From the NCBI GenBank assembly GCA_902768985.1, contig CACXNA010000012.1:1-59082 (forward strand): 59,082 nt of DNA, read 5' to 3'. Under the pieces are notes generated by a model. That model saw only the letters and a program-made list of their open reading frames with translations. It made no database searches and had not been told where the DNA came from. Source of the stretch: an uncultured Bacteroidia bacterium. GTDB taxonomy: Bacteria; Bacteroidota; Bacteroidia; Bacteroidales; UBA932. Below are positions 36,927 to 52,861 of the stretch, in pieces. The translations under genes and the position numbers were made by a program. Within the stretch, counting starts at the first letter, position 1; the number at the start of each line of letters is the position of its first letter.

Positions 36927-39900
36927 CTAGAATTGAATGTTAACACCAATGAGGAAAGTCCTGGAAGCAGGATAGAAGCCCACGTCGATGCCGGAAGCCC
37001 AGTCGTCGTCGGTACCCTTGCCCATTTCGGGATCCATACCGGAGTAGCCGGTGATGGTCAGGAGGTTCTGGGCTGAGAAATACAGGCGGGCCTTGCTGAT
37101 GTACTTCATGTTCACCAGTTTACGGAAGTCGTAACCGATGGTGACATTGGAGATCTTGAAGTAGTCGCCGTTCTCGATGTAGATATCGGAGATGTTCTGC
37201 CAGTTGCGGTTGCTGCCGTAGGTCAAGATCGGAAGGCGGTTCGAGGTGCCCTCACCCTGCCAGGTCTGGAAGACGTCGGTGGTGAAGTTGTCGCGCTGGC
37301 TGTCGGCGAAGGAACGGTAGGACTTGGCGATCTGCTGACCGAAAGCACCGTAGCCGGCGATGTTGAAGTCGAAGCCCTTCCAGGCCATCCAGAAGTTCAG
37401 ACCGGCGGTGAAGTGCGGGTTCGGATCACCGATCATGGTGCGGTCGTCAGCGGAGATCACGCCGTCATTGTTGGTGTCGACGAAAATCAGGTCGCCCGGC
37501 TTGGAATCCTCGTATTTCACCTTCGTGGCGTCGACCTGGGCCTGGTTCTGGAAGACACCGGCGGTCTTGTAGCCGTAGAAGTAGCCGATCGGATAACCGA
37601 CCTGGGCGCGGTACATTTCGACCGTACCCTCGGAGAGGACGTCCTCGGCACCGTGGATGATGCCTTCGGCGTTGGCGATGCGGGTGACAACGTTCTTATT
37701 GTAAGCACCATTCACGTTGATGCCGTAGGTGAAGTCACCGGTGTTCTTGCTCCAGTCGATGGAGAGTTCGATACCGGCGTTGCGGATGTCACCACCGTTG
37801 ATATACGGCGGATTCAGACCGTACACGGAAGCGATCGGGGCGTTGACCAGCCAGTCGCGCGTGTCCTTGATGTAACCGTCGAGGGAAACACCGAGGCGGG
37901 AGTTGAAGAAGCGGGCGTCGATACCGAGGTCGAGCTGCTGGGAGGTCTCCCAGCTCACATCCGGGTTGGCGAGCACGTCACCGACGGCGCCGGTCGAGAA
38001 GGAATCCTCGGAATCAAAGGCGTAGGACGCATTCGTGTCCAGCACGATGGAGGAGAGGTACTGGAAGTTGGAGATGCTGGCGTTACCGTTCTGGCCCCAG
38101 CTGGCACGCACCTTCAGGAAGCTGAGCCAGTCCTTGGCTTCGGCCATCCACGGCTCGGAAGAGATCACCCAACCGGCGGACACGGAGGGGAAGATACCCC
38201 AGCGGTGACCACGGGCGAAGTTGGAGGAACCGTCGGCACGGACCGTTGCGGAGAACATGTACTTGCCGTCGAAGTTGTAGTTCACACGGCCGAAGAAGGA
38301 AGCCAGGGCGCCCTGGCTCCGGGGAGCACCGGACACGGAAACTTCGCTCAACTGCTTCGGTTTGGTGTTGGACAGGTAGGCGCGCTCGAAGTCGTTCGGG
38401 AAGATGGAGTTGTAGCCCGTTCCCTTGACCGAGGCACCCATGCCCCATTTCTCGATGGACTGACCGGCCACAACGTCGAAGTTGTGCTTGTCAGCGATGG
38501 AGAAGGAGTAGGACACCGTATTTTCCCAGGTGATGCGCTGGTTCGTGTTCATGCTCTGGCTGACATTGTCGAAATCATTGAAAGCCTTCGCATTGATGTT
38601 GTAGATCATGTTGTACGAGCGGGAGGAGCCGGCGGTCATCAAGTAACCGAACTGGGTCTTGAACTTGAGGTTCTTGATCGGCTGGAACTCAGCGAAGACG
38701 CTGGCCTGCAGCGTGTAGCTGGAGCTCGTGTTCAGACCGCGGGAGGTATAGAAGTCGTATGCCAGCGGGTTGGCGGAGCTGGTGGTGGTGTCGAAGGTCC
38801 AGCCTTCGGCCAAGCGCACGTCCTGATCGTAGAAGCCCGTCACGTTGCCCTGCTCATCATAAGTATAGGCAGGGAGGAGCGGGGTCGTGCGCAGGATGTT
38901 GTGGACGGAGTTCCAGTAGATGTCCACGTCGTTCGCGATACCACTGTTGGTGCTGTGGTTGAAGTTCAGCGTCTGGCCGATGCGCAGGATGTCGAGCTTG
39001 TCGTTCTTGATCACCACGTTGTCGGTGTTCACGCGGAAGGTGTAGCGCTGGAATTTGGCGTTCATCGGCGTGATCTTGTTGTAGCCGATGATACCGTCCT
39101 GTCCGGTGTAGGACAGACCGATGGCGTACTTGTGGTCCGCCGTGCCGCCGGTCACGTTGATCGCGTGGTTCGTCGTCATGGCGCCCTTGTTATAGGCTTC
39201 TTCCATCCAGTTGGTGCCCTTCCAGGCGCCGCTCTGGATCTGCTGGTACAGGTAGGACGGCAGGACGCTCGCCCAGTCGGTCAGGGCGATACCTTCGTTC
39301 TTGTACATCAGGTCGAGGGCCTTCATATACTCCTGCGCGTTGCAGAGGTTCGGCATCTTGGAGATGAACTGCCAGCCGTAGTAGCCGTCGTAGGACACCA
39401 CGGCGCGGCCTTCCTTACCCTGCTTGGTGGTCACGAGCACGACGCCGTTCGCAGCACGGGCACCGTAGATGGCGGCCGATGCAGCATCCTTGAGCACGTC
39501 GATGGACTCGATGTCAGCGGGGTTGAGGGCGCTGAGGCTACCGCCTGCCACACCGTCGATGACGTAGAGCGGGTCGGAATCGCCGATAGTACCCATACCG
39601 CGGATGTTGACCTTGTAGCCTTCGCCCGGCTGGCCGGAGGCCTGAGTGATGGTAACGCCCGGGCTCTGGCTCTGGAGAGCGCCCAGGACGGAGGTTGTGC
39701 TGAGTTTCGTCAGGTCTCCACCCTTCACCTGTACGGTGGAACCGGTGATGAGTTTCTTCTGCTGCACACCGTAACCGATGACGACCGCCTCGGAGAGCTG
39801 GTCCAGATCGGGATAGAGCGTAATGTTCAGGGACTTCTTGCCATTCACGGCGACTTCCGCCGGGACGTAGCCGAGGCTTTCCACGGAAAGCATGGCGGTC

Positions 39901-40100
39901 GCAGGTGCTTCGACGGAGAAGTTGCCGTCCGCGTCGGAGGTGCACCAGGCGCCCGTACCCTTGACAACGACGGACGCGAACGGGACAGGGTCGCCGCTGG
40001 CGCCATCGGTGATCGTTCCCTTGACCGTCAGGTTCTGGGCATTGACAGTCAATGCGGCCAATCCCGACAGGAGGAACAGAAAGATTTTGTTGGCTTTCAT
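36927..40100 (-). CDS. SusC/RagA-family TonB-dependent outer-membrane channel
   Basis: A 1057-residue channel. The start is MKANKIFLFLLSGLAALTVN at 40100; the open frame upstream overlaps the promoter. After the signal peptide come a carboxypeptidase-regulatory-like domain (GTITDGASGDPVPFASVVVK), the TonB-box/plug region (VVIGYGVQQKKLITGSTVQV) and the 22-strand barrel ending RTFLIGVNIQF. With SusD it imports glycan fragments. Transcription starts from the A promoter (40147-40212), which carries the locus operator. Confidence 0.96.
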   Translation of the reverse strand: MKANKIFLFLLSGLAALTVNAQNLTVKGTITDGASGDPVPFASVVVKGTGAWCTSDADGNFSVEAPATAMLSVESLGYVPAEVAVNGKKSLNITLYPDLDQLSEAVVIGYGVQQKKLITGSTVQVKGGDLTKLSTTSVLGALQSQSPGVTITQASGQPGEGYKVNIRGMGTIGDSDPLYVIDGVAGGSLSALNPADIESIDVLKDAASAAIYGARAANGVVLVTTKQGKEGRAVVSYDGYYGWQFISKMPNLCNAQEYMKALDLMYKNEGIALTDWASVLPSYLYQQIQSGAWKGTNWMEEAYNKGAMTTNHAINVTGGTADHKYAIGLSYTGQDGIIGYNKITPMNAKFQRYTFRVNTDNVVIKNDKLDILRIGQTLNFNHSTNSGIANDVDIYWNSVHNILRTTPLLPAYTYDEQGNVTGFYDQDVRLAEGWTFDTTTSSANPLAYDFYTSRGLNTSSSYTLQASVFAEFQPIKNLKFKTQFGYLMTAGSSRSYNMIYNINAKAFNDFDNVSQSMNTNQRITWENTVSYSFSIADKHNFDVVAGQSIEKWGMGASVKGTGYNSIFPNDFERAYLSNTKPKQLSEVSVSGAPRSQGALASFFGRVNYNFDGKYMFSATVRADGSSNFARGHRWGIFPSVSAGWVISSEPWMAEAKDWLSFLKVRASWGQNGNASISNFQYLSSIVLDTNASYAFDSEDSFSTGAVGDVLANPDVSWETSQQLDLGIDARFFNSRLGVSLDGYIKDTRDWLVNAPIASVYGLNPPYINGGDIRNAGIELSIDWSKNTGDFTYGINVNGAYNKNVVTRIANAEGIIHGAEDVLSEGTVEMYRAQVGYPIGYFYGYKTAGVFQNQAQVDATKVKYEDSKPGDLIFVDTNNDGVISADDRTMIGDPNPHFTAGLNFWMAWKGFDFNIAGYGAFGQQIAKSYRSFADSQRDNFTTDVFQTWQGEGTSNRLPILTYGSNRNWQNISDIYIENGDYFKISNVTIGYDFRKLVNMKYISKARLYFSAQNLLTITGYSGMDPEMGKGTDDDWASGIDVGFYPASRTFLIGVNIQF

Positions 40101-40146: not shown

Positions 40147-40212
40147 CAAAAATATCCAATTTGACTCCACAGCAAAGCCAAATTCGCGTATTCCTATACG
40201 CAATTTGCGTAT
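40147..40212 (-). promoter_or_regulatory. susC promoter with locus operator A
   Basis: Minus-strand -7 box TATTTTTG (40147-40154) and -33 TTTG (40173-40176, 18-base spacer). Upstream lies the 25-base element GCGTA-N16-GCGT (40186-40210, plus-strand reading), which includes a 17-base palindrome ATACGCAA-T-TTGCGTAT (40196-40212). The distance from the -7 box to the operator is 32 bases, the same as at the B and C sites. Confidence 0.75.
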
Positions 40213-40220
40213 GAAGCAGA

Positions 40221-43200
40221 TTATTGCATAAGTGAGCGGACAATCCGACCGATCTCGTCATTTTCATGAACACCCGTAAATGCCTCGGCATGCGGGCCAT
40301 AGGCGAACACGGGAACGAGGATGCCGTTGTGTCCCTTGGTGGAGAAATGCACTTTCACGGTGCGGTTTTCGAGGCTGCCGTCGATCAGCGTGAGGCCGCC
40401 GGTGGCGTGGTCCGCCGTCACGATGACGAGCGTCTGCCCGTCCTGCTCGGCCCACTTCAGGACCTTGCCGATCGTGCGGTCGAAGTCGAAGAGCTCCTCG
40501 GCCATGTAGCCGACCTTCTGGCGGTGGCACCAGTCGTCGATGCTGGAGCCTTCTACCATCAGGAAGAAACCTTTCTTGTTGTCCAGCAGCTCAATAGCCT
40601 TCATGGTACTGTCCTCGAGCACCGGGCCGCGGTCGAGCGCGGGCTCCATCTCGAGCGGGGCGAAGAGGCCGAGCATGCGGCCGCTCTTCACCTTGTTCAG
40701 GTCGTCCAGATTGTCCACGAAGGTGTAGCCGCGGTCCACCATCTCCTTCACCAGGTCGCGGCCGTCGGAGCGGTTCTGCCAGAACTGGATGCCGCCGCCG
40801 CAGAGGAAGTCCACGCCGCTGTCCACATACTGGGCGGCGTTGATCTCCTCCTCGTCGCGGTCGAGCGAGTGGCCGACGAAGTCGAGCGGGGTGGCGTCGT
40901 TGATGCGGCAGGTCACGGTGACGCCGGTCTTCATGCCCTTGCGCTGCGCGTCATGCAGCAGGGACGGAACCGGGTTGCCGTCCGGATCCACACCCATATA
41001 ATGGTAGCGCGTCTTGACGCCCGTCGCCAGGGCGGAGCCGCCGGCGCAGGAGTCCGTCACGAGGCGGTCGACCGCATAGGTGCGGGAGAAGCCGGACACG
41101 GGCATGTTGTCCATATTGAGGTGGCCGCCGTTGAGCACCCAGCCGCAGCTGACCTGCTCCACGCCCATGCCGTCGCCGATCATGAAGATGACGTTTTTAA
41201 TCTTCTTGCCTTTCGGCTGCTGCACCGTCACCGTCTCGTACGGCTCGGCGACCGTGTACTGGTCATCCTCGCTGAACTGGTCGTTCGCGTACTTGGAGCG
41301 GTTGCGGGAGATGTCTTCCTCCTCCGTCAGCGGGGTGGCGGGGGCACCGCTGTCGAGCACGAAGTGCACATTCTGCGCCTCCGTGCGGCAGGTGACCGCC
41401 TTGGTCTGGCCCGGCAGGAGCGGGAAGAAATTGTCGCTCCAGAAGGCCGGGGCGACCAGCTGGCCGGCGGCGTCGAGCGCCTTCACGATGTTCATGTAGG
41501 CGATGACGTCGGACCTGTTGGTCAGGGTCACGGTCCAGGTGCCGTCCCCGCCGGCCACGCTCATCTGCACGTCGGCCGGCTCCTGTGCGAAGACGAAGCG
41601 CAGGTCGGCGTGGCGCGTGATCGGGGTGAGGTACCAGTTGGTCTTGGACCAATTGTATTCATTGTCCTTGGCGGGCAGGCAGTAGAAGTTGTCCGCGACG
41701 GGCGTGCCGTCCGGCTCCGTGAGCGTGAGCGCCACGAAATGCGGCTTGCCGTCGAAGCGGCGCAGGTCGAAGACCGGCAGGCTCTGGCGGTAGCCGAGGG
41801 TGAGCTCGCGGCTGTCGCCGCCCAGCACGCGGGAGTTCGCGTCATAGACGAGGTAGGTGGCCTTCAGCGTGCGCGCTTCCGGCTGCTCGCTGACCGCGTA
41901 AACCTTGCGGTCGGCGTAGTCGAAAATCAGCTGGACGGGCTCGCAGGCCTTCTTGGTGCCGTAGTAGGCGGCGGTCGGAGCGCCGTACCAGTCGTAGAGC
42001 TGCCAGTAGAGGGACGGCCAGGCGGAGTTCAGCATCCACTGGACGATGCCCGTGCCCTTCGGCAGGCGGGCGCGGAAGGCCTCGAACATGGCGCGCGTGC
42101 CGTCGTAGTCCACGGCGTGCGCCTTGCGGACAAAGTCCGCGAAATCGGTGGCAGCGCCGTACTGCTCCGTCACGATGGTGTTGAGCATCTTCGGCGAATT
42201 CATCGCCGAGCCGGAGGCCGTGCAATGGTAGTTCCAGCTCTCGGAAAGCGGCCAGAGATCCGCTTCCGGGATCATGCGGTGCAGGGATTCCGCCTGCGGC
42301 AGGTTGGCGCCGATGCCGGTCTCGGTGTTGAAGCCGAAGGCGCCGCCGGCCTGCTTGTCACGGTACCAGTAGTCCGGGCCGACGTACTCGTACGGGCCTT
42401 CCATCTTGGTGCCGGACCAGCCGGTGATGGTGCTCTCCAGGTTCTTGGCGGAGCAGACGTAGGGGCGATACTCCTCAGCGTTGTAAATCTCCATATAGCG
42501 CTGCTCCAGCCGGGGATTCGGAATGCGGTCGCTGCCGGTCAGCCAGCCGATCACGGCGGCGTGGTTGTGCAGGCGGACCACCTGGTCGCGGAAATACGCG
42601 ACGGCCAGGTCCTCCGTCTCCGGGGTGTTGATGCAGCCGTAGCCGTGGACCTCGGGCAGACCGCAGTAGTCCTCCCACTCCCACTGGCAGCTCCAGCCCA
42701 CGAGGGCGAGCACACCGAGCCGGTCGCAGAGGTCATAGACCGTGTCGTCCTTGCCCCAGATGTTTTCGAAGCGGATACAGTTCAAGTTCATATCCATGAC
42801 GTACTCGACCTGCTGCCGGATGCTCTCCGGAGTGTCGCGCAGGAAGAGGTCGTCGGTCCAGCCGGCACCCTTGATCAGGATGTCGCGGCCGTTCAGTTTG
42901 AATTGGCGGTAATTCTCAGCGGTCATGCAGCTGGTGATCTTGCGCACGCCGAAGTCGACCTCCTTGCGGTCGGACACGGCGGCGCCCAGCTTCACGCAGG
43001 CGCTCAGATGATAGAGTTCCGGCTTGCCCAGGTCATAGCTCCACCACACGCGGGGGTTCTCCAGGTGCAGCATCGCCACCTGCTCCGGGGTCAGGACCAG
43101 CGTCTGTTGGGTGGCGGCGGGCAGGCTGACGGGAACCGTGGCCTCGCCGACGCCGTCCAGCGCGAGCACCAGCGTGCCCTCAACCGGCGTGGCGGCATGG

Positions 43201-43868
43201 TTGCGCAGCTTCACGCGCAGCTCCAGGTCGGCCTCTGCGAGCGTCTCGACATTGAGGTCAGGCACCACGAACACATCCTCGACGGACACGGCGCCGGTCG
43301 CGCGGAGCGTCACCGGGCGCACGATGCCCATGCTCTCGTCGAACGGACGGGGATTCCAGTCCACGAAACCGATGTTCAGGTCGCCTTTCTGCGCGCGGCG
43401 CAGCTTCACTTCCAGGCGGTTGTTGCCCTTGAGCAGCGAGCCGACCTCGTAGGCGCGGCGGCGGAAGACGCCGAAGGTGGTGTCGGACGAGGCGAGCTGC
43501 GTGCCGTTCAGGAAAATGTCGGCGTAGTAGTTCAGGCCGTCGAACGCCAGCTCGACGAACTGGCCCGCGGCGGGCTTCGCCGTGAAGGTGGTGCTGTAGG
43601 TCCACACATCGTCGAAGGGCGCCTTGTCCACGGCGGCGTAGTTGCGGCCGTCGAAGAGGTCGTCGCCGAAGTAGCCGGCCTCGGAGAGGACGCCGCACAC
43701 GGTCGAAGGGACCGTGGCCGCATACTGCTCCGCCGCGCCTTCGCGCGAGAGCTGCCAGCCCCCGTCCAGGACGAGGGCGTCCCCGGAGGCCATCCGGCCC
43801 TGCTGCCCGCAGGCGCAGAGCATCACTGTCAGAAGGAGGTAGAAGATCTTTTTCATACGTGGGTTCAT
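40221..43868 (-). CDS. Fusion: GH2 exo-beta-glucosaminidase-like enzyme + alkaline phosphatase
   Basis: A 1215-residue lipoprotein. The signal is MKKIFYLLLTVMLCAC, counted from an internal Met; the 43868 start shares a TGATG with the ROK gene. Residues 30-880 form a GH2 enzyme of the exo-beta-D-glucosaminidase/mannosidase group with acid D447 (WLTGSDRIP) and nucleophile E516 (FGFNTETGIG). Residues about 890-1215 are a complete alkaline phosphatase: metal site MIGDGMG, nucleophile S940 in TDSCAGGSALATG, EGSSIDDWCH, and VTADHATGG (Ala where most have Glu). One polypeptide would thus remove phosphate and cut a hexosaminyl or mannosyl bond on the same glycan. Confidence 0.9.
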   Translation of the reverse strand: MNPRMKKIFYLLLTVMLCACGQQGRMASGDALVLDGGWQLSREGAAEQYAATVPSTVCGVLSEAGYFGDDLFDGRNYAAVDKAPFDDVWTYSTTFTAKPAAGQFVELAFDGLNYYADIFLNGTQLASSDTTFGVFRRRAYEVGSLLKGNNRLEVKLRRAQKGDLNIGFVDWNPRPFDESMGIVRPVTLRATGAVSVEDVFVVPDLNVETLAEADLELRVKLRNHAATPVEGTLVLALDGVGEATVPVSLPAATQQTLVLTPEQVAMLHLENPRVWWSYDLGKPELYHLSACVKLGAAVSDRKEVDFGVRKITSCMTAENYRQFKLNGRDILIKGAGWTDDLFLRDTPESIRQQVEYVMDMNLNCIRFENIWGKDDTVYDLCDRLGVLALVGWSCQWEWEDYCGLPEVHGYGCINTPETEDLAVAYFRDQVVRLHNHAAVIGWLTGSDRIPNPRLEQRYMEIYNAEEYRPYVCSAKNLESTITGWSGTKMEGPYEYVGPDYWYRDKQAGGAFGFNTETGIGANLPQAESLHRMIPEADLWPLSESWNYHCTASGSAMNSPKMLNTIVTEQYGAATDFADFVRKAHAVDYDGTRAMFEAFRARLPKGTGIVQWMLNSAWPSLYWQLYDWYGAPTAAYYGTKKACEPVQLIFDYADRKVYAVSEQPEARTLKATYLVYDANSRVLGGDSRELTLGYRQSLPVFDLRRFDGKPHFVALTLTEPDGTPVADNFYCLPAKDNEYNWSKTNWYLTPITRHADLRFVFAQEPADVQMSVAGGDGTWTVTLTNRSDVIAYMNIVKALDAAGQLVAPAFWSDNFFPLLPGQTKAVTCRTEAQNVHFVLDSGAPATPLTEEEDISRNRSKYANDQFSEDDQYTVAEPYETVTVQQPKGKKIKNVIFMIGDGMGVEQVSCGWVLNGGHLNMDNMPVSGFSRTYAVDRLVTDSCAGGSALATGVKTRYHYMGVDPDGNPVPSLLHDAQRKGMKTGVTVTCRINDATPLDFVGHSLDRDEEEINAAQYVDSGVDFLCGGGIQFWQNRSDGRDLVKEMVDRGYTFVDNLDDLNKVKSGRMLGLFAPLEMEPALDRGPVLEDSTMKAIELLDNKKGFFLMVEGSSIDDWCHRQKVGYMAEELFDFDRTIGKVLKWAEQDGQTLVIVTADHATGGLTLIDGSLENRTVKVHFSTKGHNGILVPVFAYGPHAEAFTGVHENDEIGRIVRSLMQ

Positions 43869-44695
43869 CAGATTAAGGATGCGCCGATCACCGGAATGTC
43901 GTCGCCGGTGCAGACATCGATGGAGAGCTTTTCCAAACTGGACTTATACGGGAAATCCCGCTTCAGGCGCGCCTCCATGGACTGCCGGAAGAGCGGGTAG
44001 TTGTAGGCCACGCCACCGCCGAAAGCGATGTGGCTCGGATCGTACGCGAACATGACGGTGCAGAGCAGGTCGCCCAGGCGCTTGCCCAGCTCCGTGAACA
44101 GGGCAATGGCGCGCGGGTCGCCGTTGCGCGCGGCCTGGGAGGCGGTCATGCTGTCCCAGCCGCTGCCGGCGAAGAACTGCTTGCTGCAGAAAGCCTCCAG
44201 CGTGGCGCCGCGGTAAGGCAGGCTGCCGAGCTCGCCGGCGCCGCAGTTGGCGCCGCAGAAGAGCCGGCCGCGGTCCACGATGCCCATGCCAACGCCCGTA
44301 CCGAGGGTGATGACGACGAGCACCTCCGGCTTCGCATCGGCCGGATAGCCCTCGTACACGCCCATCGCGTAGCAGTTGGCGTCGTTGTTGACGGCAACGG
44401 GCAGGCCGAAGCGCTGCTCCAGGAGCTCTTTGAGGGGGACTTCCGTCCAGGACGGAATATTAACCGTGTCATAAACGATACCCCGCTTGACGTCCACGAC
44501 GGACGGAACGCCGATGCCGATTTTCTCCGTGTCCGGGGTAATGATTCCGGCGATCCGCTCCGACAGCGTGTCGATCGTCTCCTGCAGGGTAGCTTCATGG
44601 GGGAACCACGGGGCAGATTCCCGCTTGACAATCTTTCCGTCCTGGACCAGGCCCACGACGAGATTGGTTCCTCCTACATCAATTCCAAGTGTCAT
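43868..44695 (-). CDS. ROK-family sugar kinase
   Basis: A 275-residue sugar kinase starting MTLGIDVGGTNLVVG (the upstream frame extension overlaps the promoter). The ROK landmarks are the phosphate loop DVGGTN, the catalytic aspartate in NNDANCYAMG, and LGTGVGMGIV. The zinc cysteines of some ROK members are absent (CGANCGAGELGS). Likely substrates are GlcNAc, glucosamine or glucose; its linkage to hexosaminidase and NagB genes favours an amino sugar. The stop shares a base with the GH2-phosphatase start, so the two are coupled. Confidence 0.9.
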   Translation of the reverse strand: MTLGIDVGGTNLVVGLVQDGKIVKRESAPWFPHEATLQETIDTLSERIAGIITPDTEKIGIGVPSVVDVKRGIVYDTVNIPSWTEVPLKELLEQRFGLPVAVNNDANCYAMGVYEGYPADAKPEVLVVITLGTGVGMGIVDRGRLFCGANCGAGELGSLPYRGATLEAFCSKQFFAGSGWDSMTASQAARNGDPRAIALFTELGKRLGDLLCTVMFAYDPSHIAFGGGVAYNYPLFRQSMEARLKRDFPYKSSLEKLSIDVCTGDDIPVIGASLI

Positions 44696-44713
44696 TCTCT
44701 GTGTGATTTTTTG

Positions 44714-44777
44714 CAAAAATAGGTTTTTGATTGTTAGCTTGGGAACAAATTTGCGTATTTTCCTACACAATTTGCGT
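44714..44777 (-). promoter_or_regulatory. ROK operon promoter with locus operator B
   Basis: Minus-strand -7 box TATTTTTG (44714-44721) and, 32 bases upstream of it, GCGTA-N16-GCGT (44753-44777, plus-strand reading). The divergent GH20 gene starts at 44840 on the other side; its own near-match -7 box CATATTTG is at 44808-44815. One operator could thus serve both directions. Confidence 0.75.
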
Positions 44778-44839
44778 CAAGCTGTTTTCCGGGACCTCTT
44801 TTTTTTTCATATTTGTATCGCAAACAAAACCCGCTGATT

Positions 44840-46915
44840 GTGAACACTAAGCATTATCTTCTCCTCTTTCTCGCGTACGCGTTTTGCGTAGCGTGCACCC
44901 AACCTTGCCGCATTGTCTGGACGGAAGGCGTCACGGATCCCGCTTCCGGACGGGCCGCCCACACCCTCGAAATCCAGAACCCGCCCGCCGGTACGGACTG
45001 GACCGTCTGGTTCAGCCAGTTCCGCACCCCCGTCACCATGGAGGAGGGCGCGCCGGGCAGCATCGAGCACATCAGCGGGACGCTGTATCGCGTCGTTCCC
45101 GGCGCGGACACGCGCGGAGAGGCGATGGTCCTGAACTACGAAGCAAAGCCCCTGGTCAACCAGTGCCGCGCCCCGGAAGGCTTCTTCCTGCAGCGCAAGG
45201 GCGGCAAGCCCGTCCCCGTGGAGGCGGAATACCGTTTCCTGCCCGCCGAGCCCGTCCAGGGCTTCAGCTACACGCACGTGGAGACCGGCGTCTATGATCT
45301 CATTCCCCGCCTCAAGGAGGTGAAGCCCCTCGCGGGCGAGACCGACCCGGCCGCCGAGCCGTCCGTCACCCTGATCGACGGACAGCGCCCCGGCTGGTAC
45401 CGCATCACCCTCGCGGACGGCACCGTCCGCATCGAGGCGGCCGACGAAGACGGCGCCTGCTACGCCCGCACCACGCTGGAGCGCATCCGCCGCAACGCGC
45501 AAGGCGCGGCGGTGCCCGCTGCCGTGGTCAGCGACTGGCCCGACCTGCCCTGGCGCGGCCTGATGCTTGACGTGAGCCGCAATTTCACGAAGAAAGCCGA
45601 CCTGCTCCGCCTGATCGACCTGATGGCCACCTACAAGGCCAACTTCCTGCACCTGCACTTCGGTGACGACGAGGGCTGGCGCATCGAGATCGACGCCCTG
45701 CCGGAGCTGACCTCCTACGGCGCCTTCCGCTGCCTGCCTGTCCTCAACGAGGACGGCACCATCTCCGAGCCGGACGGCCTCCAGCCGACCTACTGCGTCG
45801 CGGCGAAGCCCGGCGACGACTCCCCCGGCAACGGTTATTATTCCCACGCCGACTTCGTCGAAATCCTCCGCTACGCCTGGGAGCGCCGCATCCGCGTGAT
45901 CCCGGAATTCGACACCCCGGGCCACTCCCGCGCGGCCGTCAAGTCCATGGAAGTCCGCGCGCAGCGCACCGGCGACGCCTCCTGCCTGCTCTCCGAGCCG
46001 GAGGACATATCTGAATACGAATCCGTGCAGGACTACACCGACAACGTCATGAACGTGGCCCTGCCCAGCACGTATACCTTCTTCGAGACCGTTTTCGACG
46101 GCTTGATCGCGCTCTACGCGGAAGCGAGCGTGCCCCTCGACGCCATCCACATCGGCGGCGACGAGGTCCCCGAGGGCTCCTGGACCGGCTCCCCGGCCTG
46201 CAAGGCCCTGCTGGCAGCCAACGGCAAGAGCAACATCGGCTGGCTCCAGGACTACTTCCTGAACCGCCTGATGGACATCGCCGAGGCGCGCGGCGTCAAG
46301 CTCGGCGGCTGGCAGGACGTCTGCCAGAACGTCGAACCCGCCACGCTCGAGCGCCTGAAGCGCAACCTCGCGCTCACCAACCTCTGGACCGTCTCGCACG
46401 GCCGCGACGTGCTCCCCTACGAGTTCGCCAACGCAGGCATCCCCGTCGTCATCTCCAGCGCCCCCAACTGCTACATGGACTTCGCCTACAACTACAGCAA
46501 GACCGAGCGCGGGCACAACTGGGGCGGCTTTGTGGACGAGCGCCGCAGCTTCTCCGTGCAGCCCTTCGACATGTACCGTTCCGTCCGCTGGGACGACTAC
46601 GGCAAGCCGATCGACCTCACGCACGCCGGCGAGGGCAAGCCGGCCCTGCAGCCGGCCGCCCGGCCGCAGATCATCGGCATCGAAGGCCACCTCTGGGCCG
46701 AGACGCTCCGCTGCTTCGACCACGTGACCTATTATTTCTTCCCCAAGTCGCTGGGCCTCTTCGAGCGCGGCTGGAACGCCACCCCCGACTGGGCCGGCAC
46801 GACCGCCCCGGACGATCCGGCCTTCACGGCCGACTTCGACCGCTTCTTCAGCATCATCACGGACCACGAGTATCCGTACTACGAGGAGCTCGGCATCAGC
46901 TATCACCGTCATTGA
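44840..46915 (+). CDS. GH20 beta-N-acetylhexosaminidase (lipoprotein)
   Basis: A 691-residue secreted enzyme removing terminal beta-GlcNAc/GalNAc. A GTG start at 44840 gives the lipoprotein signal MNTKHYLLLFLAYAFCVAC; an earlier TTG at 44813 lies inside the promoter and is rejected. The N-terminal GH20b-like domain is followed by the catalytic barrel with the acid pair in HIGGDEVPEGSW, and downstream AYNYSKTERGHNWGGF and GIEGHLWAETL line the active site. First gene of the rightward operon with the XylR regulator and the phosphatase-propeller. Confidence 0.93.
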   Translation: MNTKHYLLLFLAYAFCVACTQPCRIVWTEGVTDPASGRAAHTLEIQNPPAGTDWTVWFSQFRTPVTMEEGAPGSIEHISGTLYRVVPGADTRGEAMVLNYEAKPLVNQCRAPEGFFLQRKGGKPVPVEAEYRFLPAEPVQGFSYTHVETGVYDLIPRLKEVKPLAGETDPAAEPSVTLIDGQRPGWYRITLADGTVRIEAADEDGACYARTTLERIRRNAQGAAVPAAVVSDWPDLPWRGLMLDVSRNFTKKADLLRLIDLMATYKANFLHLHFGDDEGWRIEIDALPELTSYGAFRCLPVLNEDGTISEPDGLQPTYCVAAKPGDDSPGNGYYSHADFVEILRYAWERRIRVIPEFDTPGHSRAAVKSMEVRAQRTGDASCLLSEPEDISEYESVQDYTDNVMNVALPSTYTFFETVFDGLIALYAEASVPLDAIHIGGDEVPEGSWTGSPACKALLAANGKSNIGWLQDYFLNRLMDIAEARGVKLGGWQDVCQNVEPATLERLKRNLALTNLWTVSHGRDVLPYEFANAGIPVVISSAPNCYMDFAYNYSKTERGHNWGGFVDERRSFSVQPFDMYRSVRWDDYGKPIDLTHAGEGKPALQPAARPQIIGIEGHLWAETLRCFDHVTYYFFPKSLGLFERGWNATPDWAGTTAPDDPAFTADFDRFFSIITDHEYPYYEELGISYHRH

Positions 46916-46919
46916 TCCC

Positions 46920-48092
46920 ATGTTACGCCTGCTGATCATCACCGACTTCACGGAGTCCTTCGCCAACAAGCTCCTCCAGGGCATCGTCCGCTATTCCCGC
47001 CGCAAGGAACAGTGGGCGATCTGCCGCATGCCGCCGTCCTTCAAGGCGGAGATCGGCATCCCGGGCGTGGTCAAATGGGCCAAGGACTGGGGCGCCGACG
47101 CCGTGATCGGCCAGTTCGAGGAGACGGACGACGTGAGCCTGTTCGGCAAGAACGGCATCGTGGTCGTGGCCCAGGACTTCAAGAAGCGCTTCAAGACCAT
47201 TCCCAACATCACCGCCGACTACCTCGGCACCGGTAAGATGGCCGCCCGCTTCTTCGTGGACCGCGGCTTCCGCCATTTCGGTTTCTTCGGCTTCAACCAG
47301 GTATGCTGGTCGGACGAGCGCTGCGAGGGCTTCCGCCGCGAAGTGGAGGCCGCCGGCTTCGGCAGTTCCTTCTACGCCTACAACCTGCAGGACATCGACC
47401 ACCTGTGGTACTACGAGCGCGACCGGCTGCGCGAATGGCTCCGGATGATCCCCAAGCCCATCGGCATCATGGCCTGCGACGACAACCAGGGCAACAACCT
47501 CATCGAGGCCTGCCACGCCGCCGGGGTCCGCATCCCGGACGAAGTGTCGGTGATCGGCGTGGATAACGACGAGCTGCTCTGCAGCCTCGGCAGTACCACG
47601 CTGTCCAGCATCTTCGTGGACATTGAGGAGGGCGGCTACAAGGCCGCCGAGCTCATCGAGCGCCGGGTGGCCAACCCCGACGCCCCGCTCGAGGACGTGG
47701 TCCTCAAGCCCGTCAAGATCGTCGGGCGCATCTCCACGGCGGCCTTCGCCACGGACGACGCCCAGATCCAGAAAGCGGTGCAGTACATCCACCGCAACTA
47801 CCAGAAGAAGATCTCCGTCAAGGACGTCATCGCGGAGGTCGCCCTGTCCCGCCGCCTGCTGGAGCGCCGCTTCAAGGTCGTGACCGGGCAGACCCTCTAC
47901 CAATATATTTCCGACCTCAAGATCAAGCGCTTCGCCGAGCTGCTCCTCGACACGGACGAGCAGGTGGTCGGCATCGCGCTGTCCCTGGGAGAGAACGACA
48001 CCAAGAGCATCTCCCGCCGTTTCAAGCAAATCTACGGCTGCTCACCCCATGAATGGCGCGAGCGCCACCAACAGAAAAAACCAAGCTTATGA
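46920..48092 (+). CDS. XylR-type transcription activator (sugar-binding + AraC HTH)
   Basis: A 390-residue regulator. Residues 1-270 are a LacI/periplasmic-binding-like sugar domain (LLIITDFTESFANKLLQGIV, GFFGFNQVCWSDERCEGFRR, VSVIGVDNDELLCSLGSTTL). Residues 285-385 carry an AraC helix-turn-helix pair (VQYIHRNYQKKISVKDVIAE, IALSLGENDTKSISRRFKQI, YGCSPHEWRERH). This is the XylR arrangement of Bacteroidota and proteobacteria. It is the natural candidate to bind the three operators at 40186, 44753 and 52803 (inference). It lies 4 bases after the GH20 gene. Confidence 0.93.
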   Translation: MLRLLIITDFTESFANKLLQGIVRYSRRKEQWAICRMPPSFKAEIGIPGVVKWAKDWGADAVIGQFEETDDVSLFGKNGIVVVAQDFKKRFKTIPNITADYLGTGKMAARFFVDRGFRHFGFFGFNQVCWSDERCEGFRREVEAAGFGSSFYAYNLQDIDHLWYYERDRLREWLRMIPKPIGIMACDDNQGNNLIEACHAAGVRIPDEVSVIGVDNDELLCSLGSTTLSSIFVDIEEGGYKAAELIERRVANPDAPLEDVVLKPVKIVGRISTAAFATDDAQIQKAVQYIHRNYQKKISVKDVIAEVALSRRLLERRFKVVTGQTLYQYISDLKIKRFAELLLDTDEQVVGIALSLGENDTKSISRRFKQIYGCSPHEWRERHQQKKPSL

Positions 48093-50014
48093 TCCGCAAA
48101 ACCCTTCTCATCGTCGTCCTGGGCGTCCTCGCGCTGAGCGCCGGCGCACAGAATTTCGACGTCCTGCAGGACCTGCAGGCGCATCCCGAACTCCTCGCCG
48201 GCACCGACTACCTCTGCCCGACCGGCCCCGTCTCGCTCACGCCTGCCCCCAAGGGCTACCAACCCTTCTACATCAGCCACTACGGCCGCCACGGCGCCCG
48301 CTACGCCTGGCAGAGCGACATGTACGAGCGCCTGAACAACGTGTTCGGCGCCGCCGCCGAAGCGGACAACCTCACGCCGCTCGGCGCCTCGTTCAAGCAG
48401 CGCTTCGACAGCCTGTACCCGGACGTGCGCTACCGCGTGGGCGACCTTTCCCGCAAGGGCTGGCAGCAACAGCAGGAGCTCGCCGCGCGGATGTATGAGA
48501 GTTTCCCGAAGGTGTTCGGGAAAGGCGCGAAGGTCCGCTCCTGGACCTCCACCTCCACCCGCTGCATCATGACGATGTCCTCCTTCTGCCTCGGCCTGAA
48601 GGCCAAGGACGCGCGGATGGACATCTTCGAGAACTTCGGCGTCAGCTTCCTGCCCGCCATCCTGCCGCTCGACCGCAGCAACCCCTTCCGCAACGACAAC
48701 TACCTCCGCACGCCCGTCAGCTTCGACGAGACCTGGGAGCAGTATATCGAGCGCACCGTGGACTACCGCGCCATCCTCGCGCGGATCTTCAAGGACAGCG
48801 ACAAGGCCCTTCCGGCCGGGGAGCAGTGGGACTTCGTCTCCTATCTGTACTTCTTCGCCGCGGGCATGAACAGCCTGGACACGGACCTCGACTTCAACGA
48901 CATCTTCACCCCCGAGGAGCGCATCGCCCTCTGGAAGATCGACGACTTCCAGTTCTACGCCAACGCCTGGCCGACCCACTTGGGCTACCAGCCCATCGTG
49001 GATGACATCATCGCCAAGGCCGACGCGCGCATCGCCTCCGGCGAGCAGGGCGCCGACCTGCGCTTCGGCCACGACTACACCTTCCTGCCGCTGCTGATGA
49101 CCCTCGGCGTGAACGGCTTCGACCACGACGTCACCAACCCGGACGACATCCCGTTCTGGTGCCAGCTGCACGAGGTGCCGATGGGCGCCAACCTCCACTT
49201 CGTCTTCTTCCGCAATCCCCGCTCCTCCAAGGTGCTCTTCAAAGTGCTCCTCAACGGCCGGGAAGCCCACCTGCCCCTCGAGACCGACAACTGGCCGTAC
49301 TACGACTGGGACGCCTTCAAGCAGAAGGCCAGCCTCCCGGTGATGGGCGATTATACCACCATTGACACGGAGGTTCCCGAGGTCTCCGGCCTCTGCCTGG
49401 CGCCGGACGGAAACGGCTTCCTGGCCGCCTCCGACGAGAAAGGCGTCTACGCCGTCAGCTGGACGGGCGAGACGAAACCCTTCTTCGTGGCGGAGCGCAG
49501 CATGGACTGCGAGGGCGTCACGATGGACCCGGCCACCGGGGATGTCTACTACATCGTCGAGCGCAAGCAGGAAGTCCGCCGGCTGCGCGCCCCGGAGTAT
49601 AACGAGTCTGAACTGCTTACGGTGATCAAGGAAGTGGGCTACCGCACCAACAGCGGCCTCGAGGCCATCACCTGGATGGGCGACGGCACCCTGATGCTCG
49701 GCAACCAGGCCAAGCCGCGCCTGCTCATCCGCTACTCCCCGACCGAGGGTATCCTCGGCCAGACGGAGATCACGGAAGGCATCGTCGACATCTCCGACCT
49801 CTGCTACGACCCGGTGCGCAAGGCCCTCTGGATCCCGGACAGCGAAGCGCGCACGATCAATCTCTGCACCCTGGAAGGCAAGGTGATCGCCTCCTACCCG
49901 GTGCCCTTCATCGATAACGGAGAAAGCTTGTACGTGGATCGCGACCGCCAGTGCATCTGGGTAGGCGACGACACCACGTCCAAGCTCTACAAAATCAGTT
50001 TCAAGAATCTATAA
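48089..50014 (+). CDS. Fusion: histidine acid phosphatase + SdiA-regulated beta-propeller
   Basis: A 641-residue secreted protein with signal peptide MIRKTLLIVVLGVLALSAGA. Residues 55-420 are a histidine acid phosphatase of the MINPP/phytase-like group: RHGARY (H68) and the partner HD motif at H328-D329 (RFGHDYTFLPL). Residues 425-641 look like an SdiA-regulated/esterase-like-phytase propeller (EVSGLCLAPDGNGFLAASDE, GLEAITWMGDGTLMLGNQAK). The start overlaps the XylR stop (ATGA). The tail overlaps the nagB tail by 6 bases on the opposite strand. A second phosphatase in the locus, with a domain pairing I do not recognise as standard. Confidence 0.88.
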   Translation: MIRKTLLIVVLGVLALSAGAQNFDVLQDLQAHPELLAGTDYLCPTGPVSLTPAPKGYQPFYISHYGRHGARYAWQSDMYERLNNVFGAAAEADNLTPLGASFKQRFDSLYPDVRYRVGDLSRKGWQQQQELAARMYESFPKVFGKGAKVRSWTSTSTRCIMTMSSFCLGLKAKDARMDIFENFGVSFLPAILPLDRSNPFRNDNYLRTPVSFDETWEQYIERTVDYRAILARIFKDSDKALPAGEQWDFVSYLYFFAAGMNSLDTDLDFNDIFTPEERIALWKIDDFQFYANAWPTHLGYQPIVDDIIAKADARIASGEQGADLRFGHDYTFLPLLMTLGVNGFDHDVTNPDDIPFWCQLHEVPMGANLHFVFFRNPRSSKVLFKVLLNGREAHLPLETDNWPYYDWDAFKQKASLPVMGDYTTIDTEVPEVSGLCLAPDGNGFLAASDEKGVYAVSWTGETKPFFVAERSMDCEGVTMDPATGDVYYIVERKQEVRRLRAPEYNESELLTVIKEVGYRTNSGLEAITWMGDGTLMLGNQAKPRLLIRYSPTEGILGQTEITEGIVDISDLCYDPVRKALWIPDSEARTINLCTLEGKVIASYPVPFIDNGESLYVDRDRQCIWVGDDTTSKLYKISFKNL

Positions 50015-50806
50015 GCGATTCTCCGCGGCCTCCACGGCCTTGAAATAGCGGTAGCTGGACACTTTGAGCTCCCCCACGGCGGCCTCGTCGCAGACGATGG
50101 TTCCCGCGGGGTGGTTCTGCATGCCGCTGAGCGTGCAGTAGTGCGACATCGGACCCTCCACGGCGTCGCGCAGCGCGCGGGCCTTGCGCGGGCCGAAGGC
50201 CAGGATGACGACTTCGCGGGCGGACAGGACCGTGGCCACGCCCACCGTCAGCGCCTGCGCGGGCACGGCCTCGGGGTTGCCCCCGAAGAAGCGTGCGTTC
50301 ACCTCGCGCGTGTCCTGCGTGAGGGTCATCACCCGCGTACGGGAGCACAGCGGGGAGAAGGGCTCGTTGAAGGCGATGTGTCCGTCCTCGCCCACGCCGC
50401 CGAGGAAGAGGTCGAATCCGCCGGCGGCGGCGATGGCCTCCTCGTAGGCGACGCACTCGGCGTCCAGGTCGGCGGCGTTGCCGTCGAGGATGTGGATGTT
50501 CGCCGCAGGCTCGTCGATGTGGTCGAAGAGCTGGCGGTGCATGAAGGAGTGATAGCTCTCGGGATGATCCACCGGCAGGCCGACGTACTCGTCCATGTTG
50601 AACGAGATCACGTTCTTGAAGCTGACTTCCCCGGCGCGGACCATGCGGATGAGTTCATTATAGGTTCCAATGGGGGTGGAACCGGTGCAGAGACCGAGCA
50701 CGAAGGGCTCGGAGGTCCGGGCCGCCTTGGCGTTGATGGCGGCGGCGATGTAGTGCGCGGCCCACAGGGAGCCTTCGGCGGCGTTGTTGCGGATGATGAG
50801 TTTCAT
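50009..50806 (-). CDS. nagB: Glucosamine-6-phosphate deaminase
   Basis: NagB converts glucosamine-6-phosphate to fructose-6-phosphate and ammonia, bringing amino sugars into glycolysis. The 265 residues have the sugar-phosphate loop CTGSTPIGTYNELIR, the catalytic DEYVG, and GVGEDGHIAFNEP with catalytic Asp, His and Glu all present. The upstream gene (50811) is a NagB-like fusion, so two NagB-type proteins are encoded side by side. It begins 4 bases after that gene. Confidence 0.96.
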   Translation of the reverse strand: MKLIIRNNAAEGSLWAAHYIAAAINAKAARTSEPFVLGLCTGSTPIGTYNELIRMVRAGEVSFKNVISFNMDEYVGLPVDHPESYHSFMHRQLFDHIDEPAANIHILDGNAADLDAECVAYEEAIAAAGGFDLFLGGVGEDGHIAFNEPFSPLCSRTRVMTLTQDTREVNARFFGGNPEAVPAQALTVGVATVLSAREVVILAFGPRKARALRDAVEGPMSHYCTLSGMQNHPAGTIVCDEAAVGELKVSSYRYFKAVEAAENRL

Positions 50807-50810
50807 ATGC

Positions 50811-52736
50811 TTAACAGAGTTTCAGGAATACTTCGATGGCCTGGTACTCGGCCATGCCCAGGCGGTCGTACTGCCGGGCGGTGTTCTGCGTGCGCTCCTC
50901 GGCGCGCTGCCAGAATTCGCGCGGATCCTCGCCCGGGAACGGGACGATGTCCTTCTGCGAGAGGTGGCGGAAGATGGCGTGGCGCTTCATCACCACTTCG
51001 TCCGGGCTGAGCGGCACGGCCATGTCCACGCGGCCCAGCTCCCACTCCATCCAGGCGCCGCGATAGAGCCAGATGTGCGTCTCGGCGAGCCAGTCGTTGC
51101 CCTCGGCGCGCAGCTGCTCCACGGCCTCCAGGGCCGCTTCCGTGCACACGCGGTGCGTGCCGTGCGGGTCGGCGAGGTCACCGGCCATGAAGATCATGTG
51201 CGGCCGCAGGCGGCGCATCAGGTCCTTGATAATATCCACGTCCGCCTGCGTGCGCGGCTTCTTCTTGATACCGCCGGATTCGTAGAACGGGAGATTCAGG
51301 AAATGGGCGTTCGTGTTGTCGTCCAGGCCGAAAGAGCGCACCGCCGCGCGGGCCTCGCTGCGGCGGATGGCCGCCTTGAGGTCGAGCAGCTCGCGCGGCT
51401 CCGGCTCGCCCGGGACCTTTTGGGCCACCAGCGCCTGGATTTCCGCGAAGCGGTCCGCCAGGCCCAGCTGGCACGCCGCGTCGAAGTGCTGCAGCACCAC
51501 GTCGTCGTGGACGGCCACGTCGCCGGAAGTCTCGTAGGCCACGTGCACATTGTGCCCCTGCGAGACCAGGCGGATGAAGGTGCCGCCCATCGAGATCACG
51601 TCGTCGTCCGGGTGCGGCGAGAAGATCAGCACGGTCTTGGGGAACGGCGCGGCCGGGACCGGACGCGTGCTGTCGTCCGCGTTGGGCTTGCCGCCCGGCC
51701 AGCCGGTGATCGTATGCTGCAGGTCGTTGAAGACCCGGATGTTGATCTGGTCGTAGGGGCCGTACAGCTCCAGCAATTCGCCCAGGGAGTTCTCCAGATA
51801 GTCGCGCTCCGTCAGCTTGAGGATCGGCATGCCGGCCGTCTCGCAGAGCCAGACCACGGCCTTGCGGATGAGCTTCTGCGTCCAGTCGCAGGGGCCCACC
51901 AGCCAGGGGGCCACCACGCGGGTCAGCAGGCTGCCGGCCGTCGCGTCGACGTAGAAATGGATATGGTCGTGCCGCTGCAGCAGCGAGGCCGGGCAGGCGG
52001 GCGTCATCTCGCCTTCGACGATGGCCTTGACCGCCTGGGCCTTGTCTTCTCCCCACGCCATCAGGACGATGCGGCACGCCGAGAGCATCGTGGCGATGCC
52101 CATCGTGATGGCGCTCTGCGGCGTGGCCGCAAGGTCGTGGCCGAAGTTGCGCGACTGGCGCTTGCGGGAGCCGTAGGAGAGCCGCACGGTGCGGGTGCGC
52201 GTTTTCTCGTTGCTGCCGGCTTCGTTGAAGCCGACCTGCCCCTCTTCACCGATGCCGATGACCAGCAGGTCCAGCCCGCGCGCGAGCTTGTCGAACGCGG
52301 CGCAGTAGTCGGAAACTTCCGCCTGCGGGACGGTCCCGTCCGGGATGTGGATATTCTCCGGGAGGATATCCACCTGGTCCAGGAGCGCCTCGTGCAGGCG
52401 GTGGTTGCGGCTCTGCAGCTCGTCCGAGGAGGACGGGTAGTATTCGTCGATCGAGACCACCTCGACGTTCCGGAAGGACACCTGACCCGCCTGGTAGCGG
52501 CGCAGCAGCTCCTCATAGAGCAGGGTCGGCGTGGCGCCGGTCGTCAGGCCGAGCCGGAACAGCCGGCCCTCGCAGGCCTTGATCCCCGCGACGATCATGT
52601 CCGCCACGGCCAGCGACGCCGGCCGGGCCTCCGGATAGATATCCGTCCAGATCTTCTCGTAGTTGTGCAGGATGCCGGCGGGCAGGTTCTTTTCGATCAG
52701 GCCGCCTTCGTAGGGTAGAGTAAACTGCTTGTCCAT
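50811..52736 (-). CDS. NagB-like domain + LmbE/PIG-L deacetylase fusion
   Basis: A 641-residue cytoplasmic fusion matching the Bacteroides 'glucosamine-6-phosphate deaminase-like' type. Residues 30-270 are NagB-like with loop LTTGATPTLLYEELLRRY and DEYYP, but the catalytic motif reads GEEGQVGFNEAG. The usual Asp is Glu165 and the histidine is Gln167, while the late Glu remains. Residues about 385-641 are an LmbE/PIG-L deacetylase with metal motif SPHPDDDVISMGG and DPHGTH. It may deacetylate a GlcNAc-type phosphate while the altered NagB half binds a related sugar. The locus operator C controls it. Confidence 0.9.
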   Translation of the reverse strand: MDKQFTLPYEGGLIEKNLPAGILHNYEKIWTDIYPEARPASLAVADMIVAGIKACEGRLFRLGLTTGATPTLLYEELLRRYQAGQVSFRNVEVVSIDEYYPSSSDELQSRNHRLHEALLDQVDILPENIHIPDGTVPQAEVSDYCAAFDKLARGLDLLVIGIGEEGQVGFNEAGSNEKTRTRTVRLSYGSRKRQSRNFGHDLAATPQSAITMGIATMLSACRIVLMAWGEDKAQAVKAIVEGEMTPACPASLLQRHDHIHFYVDATAGSLLTRVVAPWLVGPCDWTQKLIRKAVVWLCETAGMPILKLTERDYLENSLGELLELYGPYDQINIRVFNDLQHTITGWPGGKPNADDSTRPVPAAPFPKTVLIFSPHPDDDVISMGGTFIRLVSQGHNVHVAYETSGDVAVHDDVVLQHFDAACQLGLADRFAEIQALVAQKVPGEPEPRELLDLKAAIRRSEARAAVRSFGLDDNTNAHFLNLPFYESGGIKKKPRTQADVDIIKDLMRRLRPHMIFMAGDLADPHGTHRVCTEAALEAVEQLRAEGNDWLAETHIWLYRGAWMEWELGRVDMAVPLSPDEVVMKRHAIFRHLSQKDIVPFPGEDPREFWQRAEERTQNTARQYDRLGMAEYQAIEVFLKLC

Positions 52737-52763
52737 AATTGATTATCTGTGGCTCATCTGCTA

Positions 52764-52827
52764 CAAAGATAGAAAAAAGGGGGCAAGTTCGGTGCGGGTT
52801 TTGCGTAATCCGACACACAAATTGCGC
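52764..52827 (-). promoter_or_regulatory. nagB-operon promoter with locus operator C
   Basis: Minus-strand -7 box TATCTTTG (52764-52771) and, 32 bases upstream of it, GCGTA-N16-GCGC (52803-52827). The spacing is identical to sites A and B. The divergent DUF3108 gene has its own -7 box at 52854-52861. Confidence 0.75.
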
Positions 52828-52853: not shown

Positions 52854-52861
52854 TACCTTTG
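52854..52861 (+). promoter_or_regulatory. -7 box of the DUF3108 gene
   Basis: TACCTTTG at 52854-52861, 15 bases before the ATG at 52877. The -33 element 19 bases upstream is weak (TTCG). Confidence 0.5.

Follow-up and report, generated by a model that had tools for sequence, protein, structure and literature searches.

A direct-repeat operator at fixed distance from the -7 box in an amino-sugar locus of uncultured Bacteroidales, and its probable XylR-type regulator

Genes and operators of the locus

The window, meaning the whole stretch of 59,082 nt that was analysed, comes from an uncultured Bacteroidia bacterium (UBA932, Bacteroidales; GCA_902768985.1, contig CACXNA010000012.1). It carries an amino-sugar utilization locus in which three leftward units each start behind one operator: susC-susD-symporter, a ROK kinase with a GH2/alkaline-phosphatase fusion, and a NagB-like/PIG-L fusion with NagB. 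A rightward series starts in the gap between ROK and GH20 and consists of the genes for GH20, a XylR-type regulator and a histidine phosphatase. Operon membership here and below is judged from gene order.

33565..35031, minus strand: sodium/solute symporter, from its position probably the end of the susCD unit
35139..36920, minus strand: susD
36927..40100, minus strand: susC, first gene behind operator 1, ATG at 40100
40221..43868, minus strand: GH2 (exo-beta-D-glucosaminidase-type Ig domain) fused to alkaline phosphatase, behind ROK
43868..44695, minus strand: ROK sugar kinase, first gene behind operator 2, start at 44695
44840..46915, plus strand: GH20 hexosaminidase, start probably GTG 44840 and not TTG 44813
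46920..48092, plus strand: XylR-type regulator (Peripla_BP_3 and AraC HTH), the predicted binder
48089..50014, plus strand: histidine-phosphatase (branch 2)/phytase-like protein, last gene of the GH20-XylR unit
50009..50806, minus strand: NagB glucosamine-6-phosphate deaminase, second gene behind operator 3
50811..52736, minus strand: glucosamine-6-phosphate deaminase-like (nagB-like) and PIG-L fusion, first gene behind operator 3, start at 52736

The open reading frame called for the histidine phosphatase begins at 48053, and its start at 48089 is taken from the translation. NagB directly adjoins the NagB-like/PIG-L fusion, which is of the PRK02122 type, both lying behind operator 3 (50009-52736). 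In four related loci (L136, L137, L139 and L160) the GH2/alkaline-phosphatase query matches two stretches some 110-130 bases apart, and there the GH2 and phosphatase parts are perhaps two genes. That the locus has both a GH2-alkaline phosphatase fusion and a histidine phosphatase (48089-50014) is a hint that the amino-sugar substrate is phosphorylated.

The operators and their associated -7 boxes are as follows.

40147..40154, minus strand: -7 box TATTTTTG of susC, 31 bases from operator 1
40186..40210, minus strand: operator 1 (susC promoter), CGCAAA-type half-sites in direct repeat 21 bases apart, read towards the leftward gene
44714..44721, minus strand: -7 box TATTTTTG of ROK, 31 bases from operator 2
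44753..44777, no strand assigned: operator 2, between the divergent ROK and GH20 genes, probably serving both directions
44808..44815, plus strand: weak -7-like box CATATTTG, 30 bases beyond the far edge of operator 2, for the GH20-XylR-phosphatase operon
52764..52771, minus strand: -7 box TATCTTTG of the nagB-PIG-L fusion, 31 bases from operator 3
52803..52827, minus strand: operator 3 (nagB-PIG-L fusion promoter)

A preliminary description of this DNA had drawn attention to the pattern GCGTA-N16-GCG[T/C] at 40186-40210, 44753-44777 and 52803-52827. Coordinates and sequences are confirmed, as are the identity of 16 of the 25 columns in all three sites and the position of each upstream of a leftward gene (susC, ROK and the nagB-PIG-L fusion, respectively). 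Half-sites recurring every 21 bases were also correctly recognized: at all three sites a CGCAA(A/T)-type half-site forms a 21-base direct repeat read towards the leftward gene, with one half-site of operator 1 off by a single base (CGCGAA for CGCAAA). Written towards the gene, the operator consensus is CGCAAATTG-n-G...TTGAAATACGCAAAT, with the repeat at 21 bp. Promoters of Bacteroidota have a -7 box of consensus TAnnTTTG and a -33 TTTG element at about 19 bp spacing. The boxes of the operator-linked promoters read CAAAnnTA on the plus strand, that is TAnnTTTG leftward, in agreement with the -7 consensus. The distance from box to operator is indeed equal at the three promoters, as had been claimed; the figure of 32 bases is the difference in coordinates in all three cases, and the number of intervening bases is 31.

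Specificity and conservation of operator and spacing

The short pattern GCGTA-N16-GCGY has three matches in the window where 1.47 are expected, a number that 17 of 100 shuffles reach, and genome-wide it has 74 matches against 100 for the backward control. It is not significant and was rejected as stand-alone evidence. It is the coupling of operator to box that is distinctive. Operator plus box gives three matches in the window and none in 100 shuffles. The window contains 24 TAnnTTTG boxes, and the 25-mer 31 bases upstream is shared by these three alone; the next best triple of such 25-mers (two of the three with another) has 10 identical columns. With a 32-base matrix derived from the three sites, they themselves score 41-44 bits; the next score in the window is 12.4 and comes from the opposite strand of site 1. 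The genome search for the operator with the box at fixed distance that the preliminary description had proposed was run in a looser version on the 2.35 Mb genome; it returned the three sites and one dissimilar match (contig C15), against none for the backward control, so that the motif is not, in this genome, a common feature of unrelated promoters. A longer operator pattern taken without the box finds, at up to three mismatches in the genome, the three sites and C2:137506 (two mismatches). This last place (C2:137506-137532 of G000; L055 7507-7533) was considered as a fourth site and is not counted as one. It lies upstream of another susC and is inverted relative to it; inspection by eye found no box at the expected place.

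For comparison, loci were gathered from a regulator search of 149 family genomes (20 stretches) and from the best 80 of 269 loci in GTDB genomes, titled mostly as ruminant gut samples with some Bacteroides isolates. Among those best 80, a close set of 34 has a regulator 69-97% identical, and 46 are more distant. The operator is present in 33 of the 34 close loci, so that it is by no means absent from orthologous loci; the stretch without it (L092) begins 1.2 kb upstream of XylR and hence does not include the ROK promoter. The window and the 34 close loci supplied 56 sites for an operator matrix, which was built with the box left out. At a score of at least 25 the close set and the three window sites yield 53 sites, with the box at 31 in 46, at 32 in five and elsewhere in two, and the spacing is thus conserved, at 31 or 32, in 51 of 53, the three window ones counted. 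Extended to the window and all of the best 80 of 269 loci at a score of at least 22, the matrix finds 89 sites in 61 of 81 sources. TAnnTTTG stands at 31 in 78 of them, at 32 in seven and at neither in four, hence at 31 or 32 in 85 of 89 even though the box had no part in the matrix, and the proportion is 64 of 68 after sites with at least 70% similar flanks are dropped.

At a lower threshold, 93 sites in the best 80 of 269 loci were assigned to the first matched gene within 400 bases. ROK is that gene for 47 sites, the nagB fusion and susC for eight each, GH2 for six, GH20 for two, and the phosphatase and XylR for one each; the remaining 20 have no match to a window gene at that distance. Sites also occur in XylR-seeded loci whose stretch has no ROK match (L131, L134, L135 and L138).

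In the more distant set a joint score (matrix at least 8, box at 30-33) gives 47 matches in 35 of 62 loci, while neither reversed sequence nor any of five Markov sets gives a match; some of the 62 loci are the same genome twice, and the 35 bearing the motif include 32 of the 46 more distant ones among the best 80 of 269. The other 14 of these 46 have no motif in the stretch examined, and 12 of the 14 are titled Bacteroides. In five loci outside the joint-score count (L037, L038, L044, L046 and L047) inspection by eye shows a box at 31 or 32 that departs from consensus by one letter. A half-site scan and reading of the XylR flanks found no operator beside most of the Bacteroides-type homologues. 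The B. heparinolyticus relative (L151), a cultured carrier, has a variant operator upstream of ROK with the box at 31. Distant homologues also gave a variant operator with a TATCYTCA spacer, which is suggestive only, as its matrix was hand-built from sites that it later found and the reversed control gave two joint and 34 plain matches. Ten Bacteroides-titled loci (L141-L144, L146, L148, L150, L153, L155 and L161) have XylR homologues 49-52% identical and no operator in the stretch examined; eight of the ten have both GH20 and GH2/phosphatase matches nearby.

The base profile of the 57 sites with dissimilar flanks and the box at 31 reveals no further conserved element between operator and box, the operator and box themselves being conserved there because the sites were selected that way. 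At the columns where a -33 TTTG element would be expected the same 57 sites contain 0.12-0.26 bits. This missing -33 signal fits activation, short of proof.

The two sides of operator 2

On its far side, operator 2 faces GH20. In relatives that side carries CAT[AC]TTTG, a -7-like box whose first base is C in 29 of 32 cases. Counting used the form [CT]AnnTTTG, which was defined after 26 sites had been viewed. A site was taken as divergent where a GH20 or XylR start lies within 160 bases, which holds for 36 of the 89 sites in the window and the best 80 of 269 loci. The far-side box is found 29-31 bases from the operator in 32 of these 36 (23 of 26 with dissimilar flanks) and in none of the 53 others. 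Of the four exceptions, L099 and L101 carry at 30 a box that differs by one letter, and L118 and L119 carry, on the XylR side, a consensus TATTTTTG at 20 bases in place of CATnTTTG at 30. The TTG at 44813 lies within the -7-like box, making the GTG at 44840 the likely GH20 start; an ATG or GTG near the equivalent of 44840 is present in many relatives.

From this arrangement, site 2 probably also controls the GH20-XylR-phosphatase operon, in which case the regulator would control itself and the regulon probably includes both the regulator and GH20, which the preliminary description missed. The two-sided operator is the most novel feature of the system. It is possible, at rather less than even odds, that one directional operator drives both divergent promoters, a strong TAnnTTTG at 31 bp and a weak CATnTTTG at 30 bp. 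An AraC-type protein would then activate whichever way it faces, and the ratio of catabolic to regulator expression would be set by the single base that distinguishes the two -7 boxes. Were this so, the TATTTTTG at 20 bp in L118 and L119 would represent another way of meeting the same need. It is doubtful, and yet deserves consideration, that the CAT[AC]TTTG box is instead a remnant or an independent weak promoter and that the operator works only leftward. In favour of this, 29 of 32 boxes differ from TAnnTTTG in their first base, a tandem repeat is directional so that the protein would present its other end, and the box definition was chosen after the event; the retention of box and distance at divergent sites, including those with dissimilar flanks, and nowhere else, argues against it.

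A further box, TACCTTTG, stands in the window at 52854-52861 on the plus strand, 26 bases from operator 3 and before a divergent DUF3108 gene. TAnnTTTG at 25-26 from the operator recurs in L085-L087 and not in L089 and L090; operator 3 may accordingly also touch the DUF3108 promoter.

The XylR-type regulator, its co-occurrence with the operator, and known relatives

The protein encoded at 46920 aligns with E. coli XylR (4fe4/4fe7) over residues 6-383 with E of about 1e-40, and has the XylR-type architecture, a LacI/PBP-like sensor followed by an AraC-type HTH, in about 390 residues. The CGCAAA direct repeat at 21 bp, in sites that were selected by matrix, agrees with the direct repeats about two helical turns apart that go with XylR-type proteins. 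The units behind the operators encode amino-sugar enzymes and transporters, and not the xylose isomerase and xylulokinase that are the targets of a xylose regulator. Neither is the 46920 protein a hybrid two-component protein, as its 390 residues contain no histidine kinase or receiver domain.

Because loci picked by XylR contain it by construction, 398 family genomes sampled without regard to XylR were searched by operator and box alone. There are 44 such sites in 37 of the genomes, and none for the backward pattern. Set against a search of the same genomes for XylR homologues (E up to 1e-60), 40 of the 44 sites have a homologue of at least 42% identity no more than 10 kb away, and for 24 of these sites it is within 400 bases. 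With homologues of at least 45% identity, 35 genomes have both site and XylR, two the site only, 24 XylR only and 337 neither (Fisher p 6e-32, a value that ignores relatedness and, related genomes not being independent, is not meant literally). The strict pattern thus misses 24 of 59 genomes with a XylR of at least 45% identity. Of the four sites further from a homologue, that in G743 is upstream of ROK with XylR on the same contig 18.7 kb away, and that in G658 is upstream of ROK on a short contig with XylR elsewhere in the genome. G764 (L195, C25:300000-318000) has a decayed locus that has kept operator, GH20 and ROK, with GH2 broken and XylR not found in the 18 kb read, and in G558, where 18 kb contain no XylR, the site lies upstream of a distant susC. 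Operator and regulator accordingly co-occur, the exceptions being G764, G558 and the 24 genomes with XylR and no strict site. Without the box, across 148 family genomes, all seven places at no more than one mismatch (five genomes) and five of eight at two mismatches are in XylR loci. At up to three mismatches 42 of the 148 genomes match and the backward control has matches as well; the places at three mismatches are mostly outside XylR loci and many are far from XylR, which makes the loose operator alone unspecific; beyond one or two mismatches it was discarded as too loose to use.

On this genomic evidence the protein at 46920 very probably binds the operators, and the earlier reading of a shared operator of one regulon is supported. 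We put a probability of roughly 0.88 on the three sites being operators through which the XylR-type regulator (46920-48092) activates an amino-sugar regulon. A XylR dimer would bind the tandem half-sites of the 21 bp repeat, 31 bp upstream of the -7 box, and once an amino-sugar signal is bound would recruit RNA polymerase to promoters that lack a conserved -33 element. Uptake (susCD and the symporter), ROK with the GH2-phosphatase, and the NagB enzymes would then be switched on together, and operator 2 would very likely serve the divergent GH20-XylR-phosphatase promoter too, with autoregulation as the outcome.

Proteins with a LacI-type sensor often act as sugar-relieved repressors. The LacI/PBP-like sensor half and the location of the regulator's own promoter on the other side of site 2 would suit a XylR that binds chiefly as a repressor relieved by sugar. 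That is improbable, as 31 bases separate the operator from the -7 box downstream and it covers neither that box nor the start, and fixed spacing without overlap of the core promoter favours activation over repression. Spacing constant to 1 bp in 85 of 89 sites, with no -33 signal in 57, similarly suits an activator, as does the AraC-type DNA-binding half, the solved relative, E. coli XylR, being described as an activator (PMC12125979). Still less credible is a regulator from outside the locus, for instance an AraC-type hybrid two-component system, with XylR a mere neighbour: the direct repeats predicted for Bacteroides hybrid two-component systems also average 21 bp apart (PMC3878776), and G764 keeps the operator with no XylR in the stretch read, as against the proximity of 40 of 44 sites to XylR (24 within 400 bases) over 398 genomes, the persistence of XylR and site together in XylR-seeded loci while the surrounding gene content varies, and the lack of any other regulator among the 20 window proteins scanned with Pfam, a scan confined to the window.

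If XylR is the activator, a DNA word, a promoter geometry and a set of targets would be assigned to one-component regulators of mostly uncultured Bacteroidales, and amino-sugar regulons could thereby be read from genomes by pattern. The rigid spacing together with the missing -33 signal would provide a natural series for activator-dependent transcription at Bacteroidota promoters, and the shared divergent operator offers a direct test of whether an AraC-type activator works both ways.

No published description of this operator was found in a literature coverage without supplements and most subscription journals. The solved relative, E. coli XylR, is like the 46920 protein in full-length homology and in domain order (AraC HTH and LacI/GalR-like sensor). 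The XylR-type XylRA of Vibrio binds AT-rich direct repeats at several promoters of its own locus (PMC12125979), and so resembles the present case in having direct-repeat operators at several promoters of one sugar locus. In contrast to both, the promoters here are those of Bacteroidales, the half-site is CGCAAA, the genes are for amino sugars and not xylose, and a single operator stands between divergent units. The AraC-type hybrid two-component systems of B. thetaiotaomicron are alike in the HTH and in predicted direct repeats averaging 21 bp apart, upstream of susCD among others (PMC3878776), whereas they have sensor kinase, receiver and AraC-type domain in one chain and the present protein is small, with a periplasmic-binding-protein-like domain and no kinase. 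Two other regulators of B. thetaiotaomicron are of different protein families: the NrtR-family XylR (BT0791), for which the name in common is a coincidence, and the ROK-family NanR (BT0433), with which there is overlap in pathway (sialic acid/GlcNAc). With 21-bp direct repeats predicted for the hybrid systems and direct repeats bound by XylRA, the operator is of a familiar type, unusually clearly marked.
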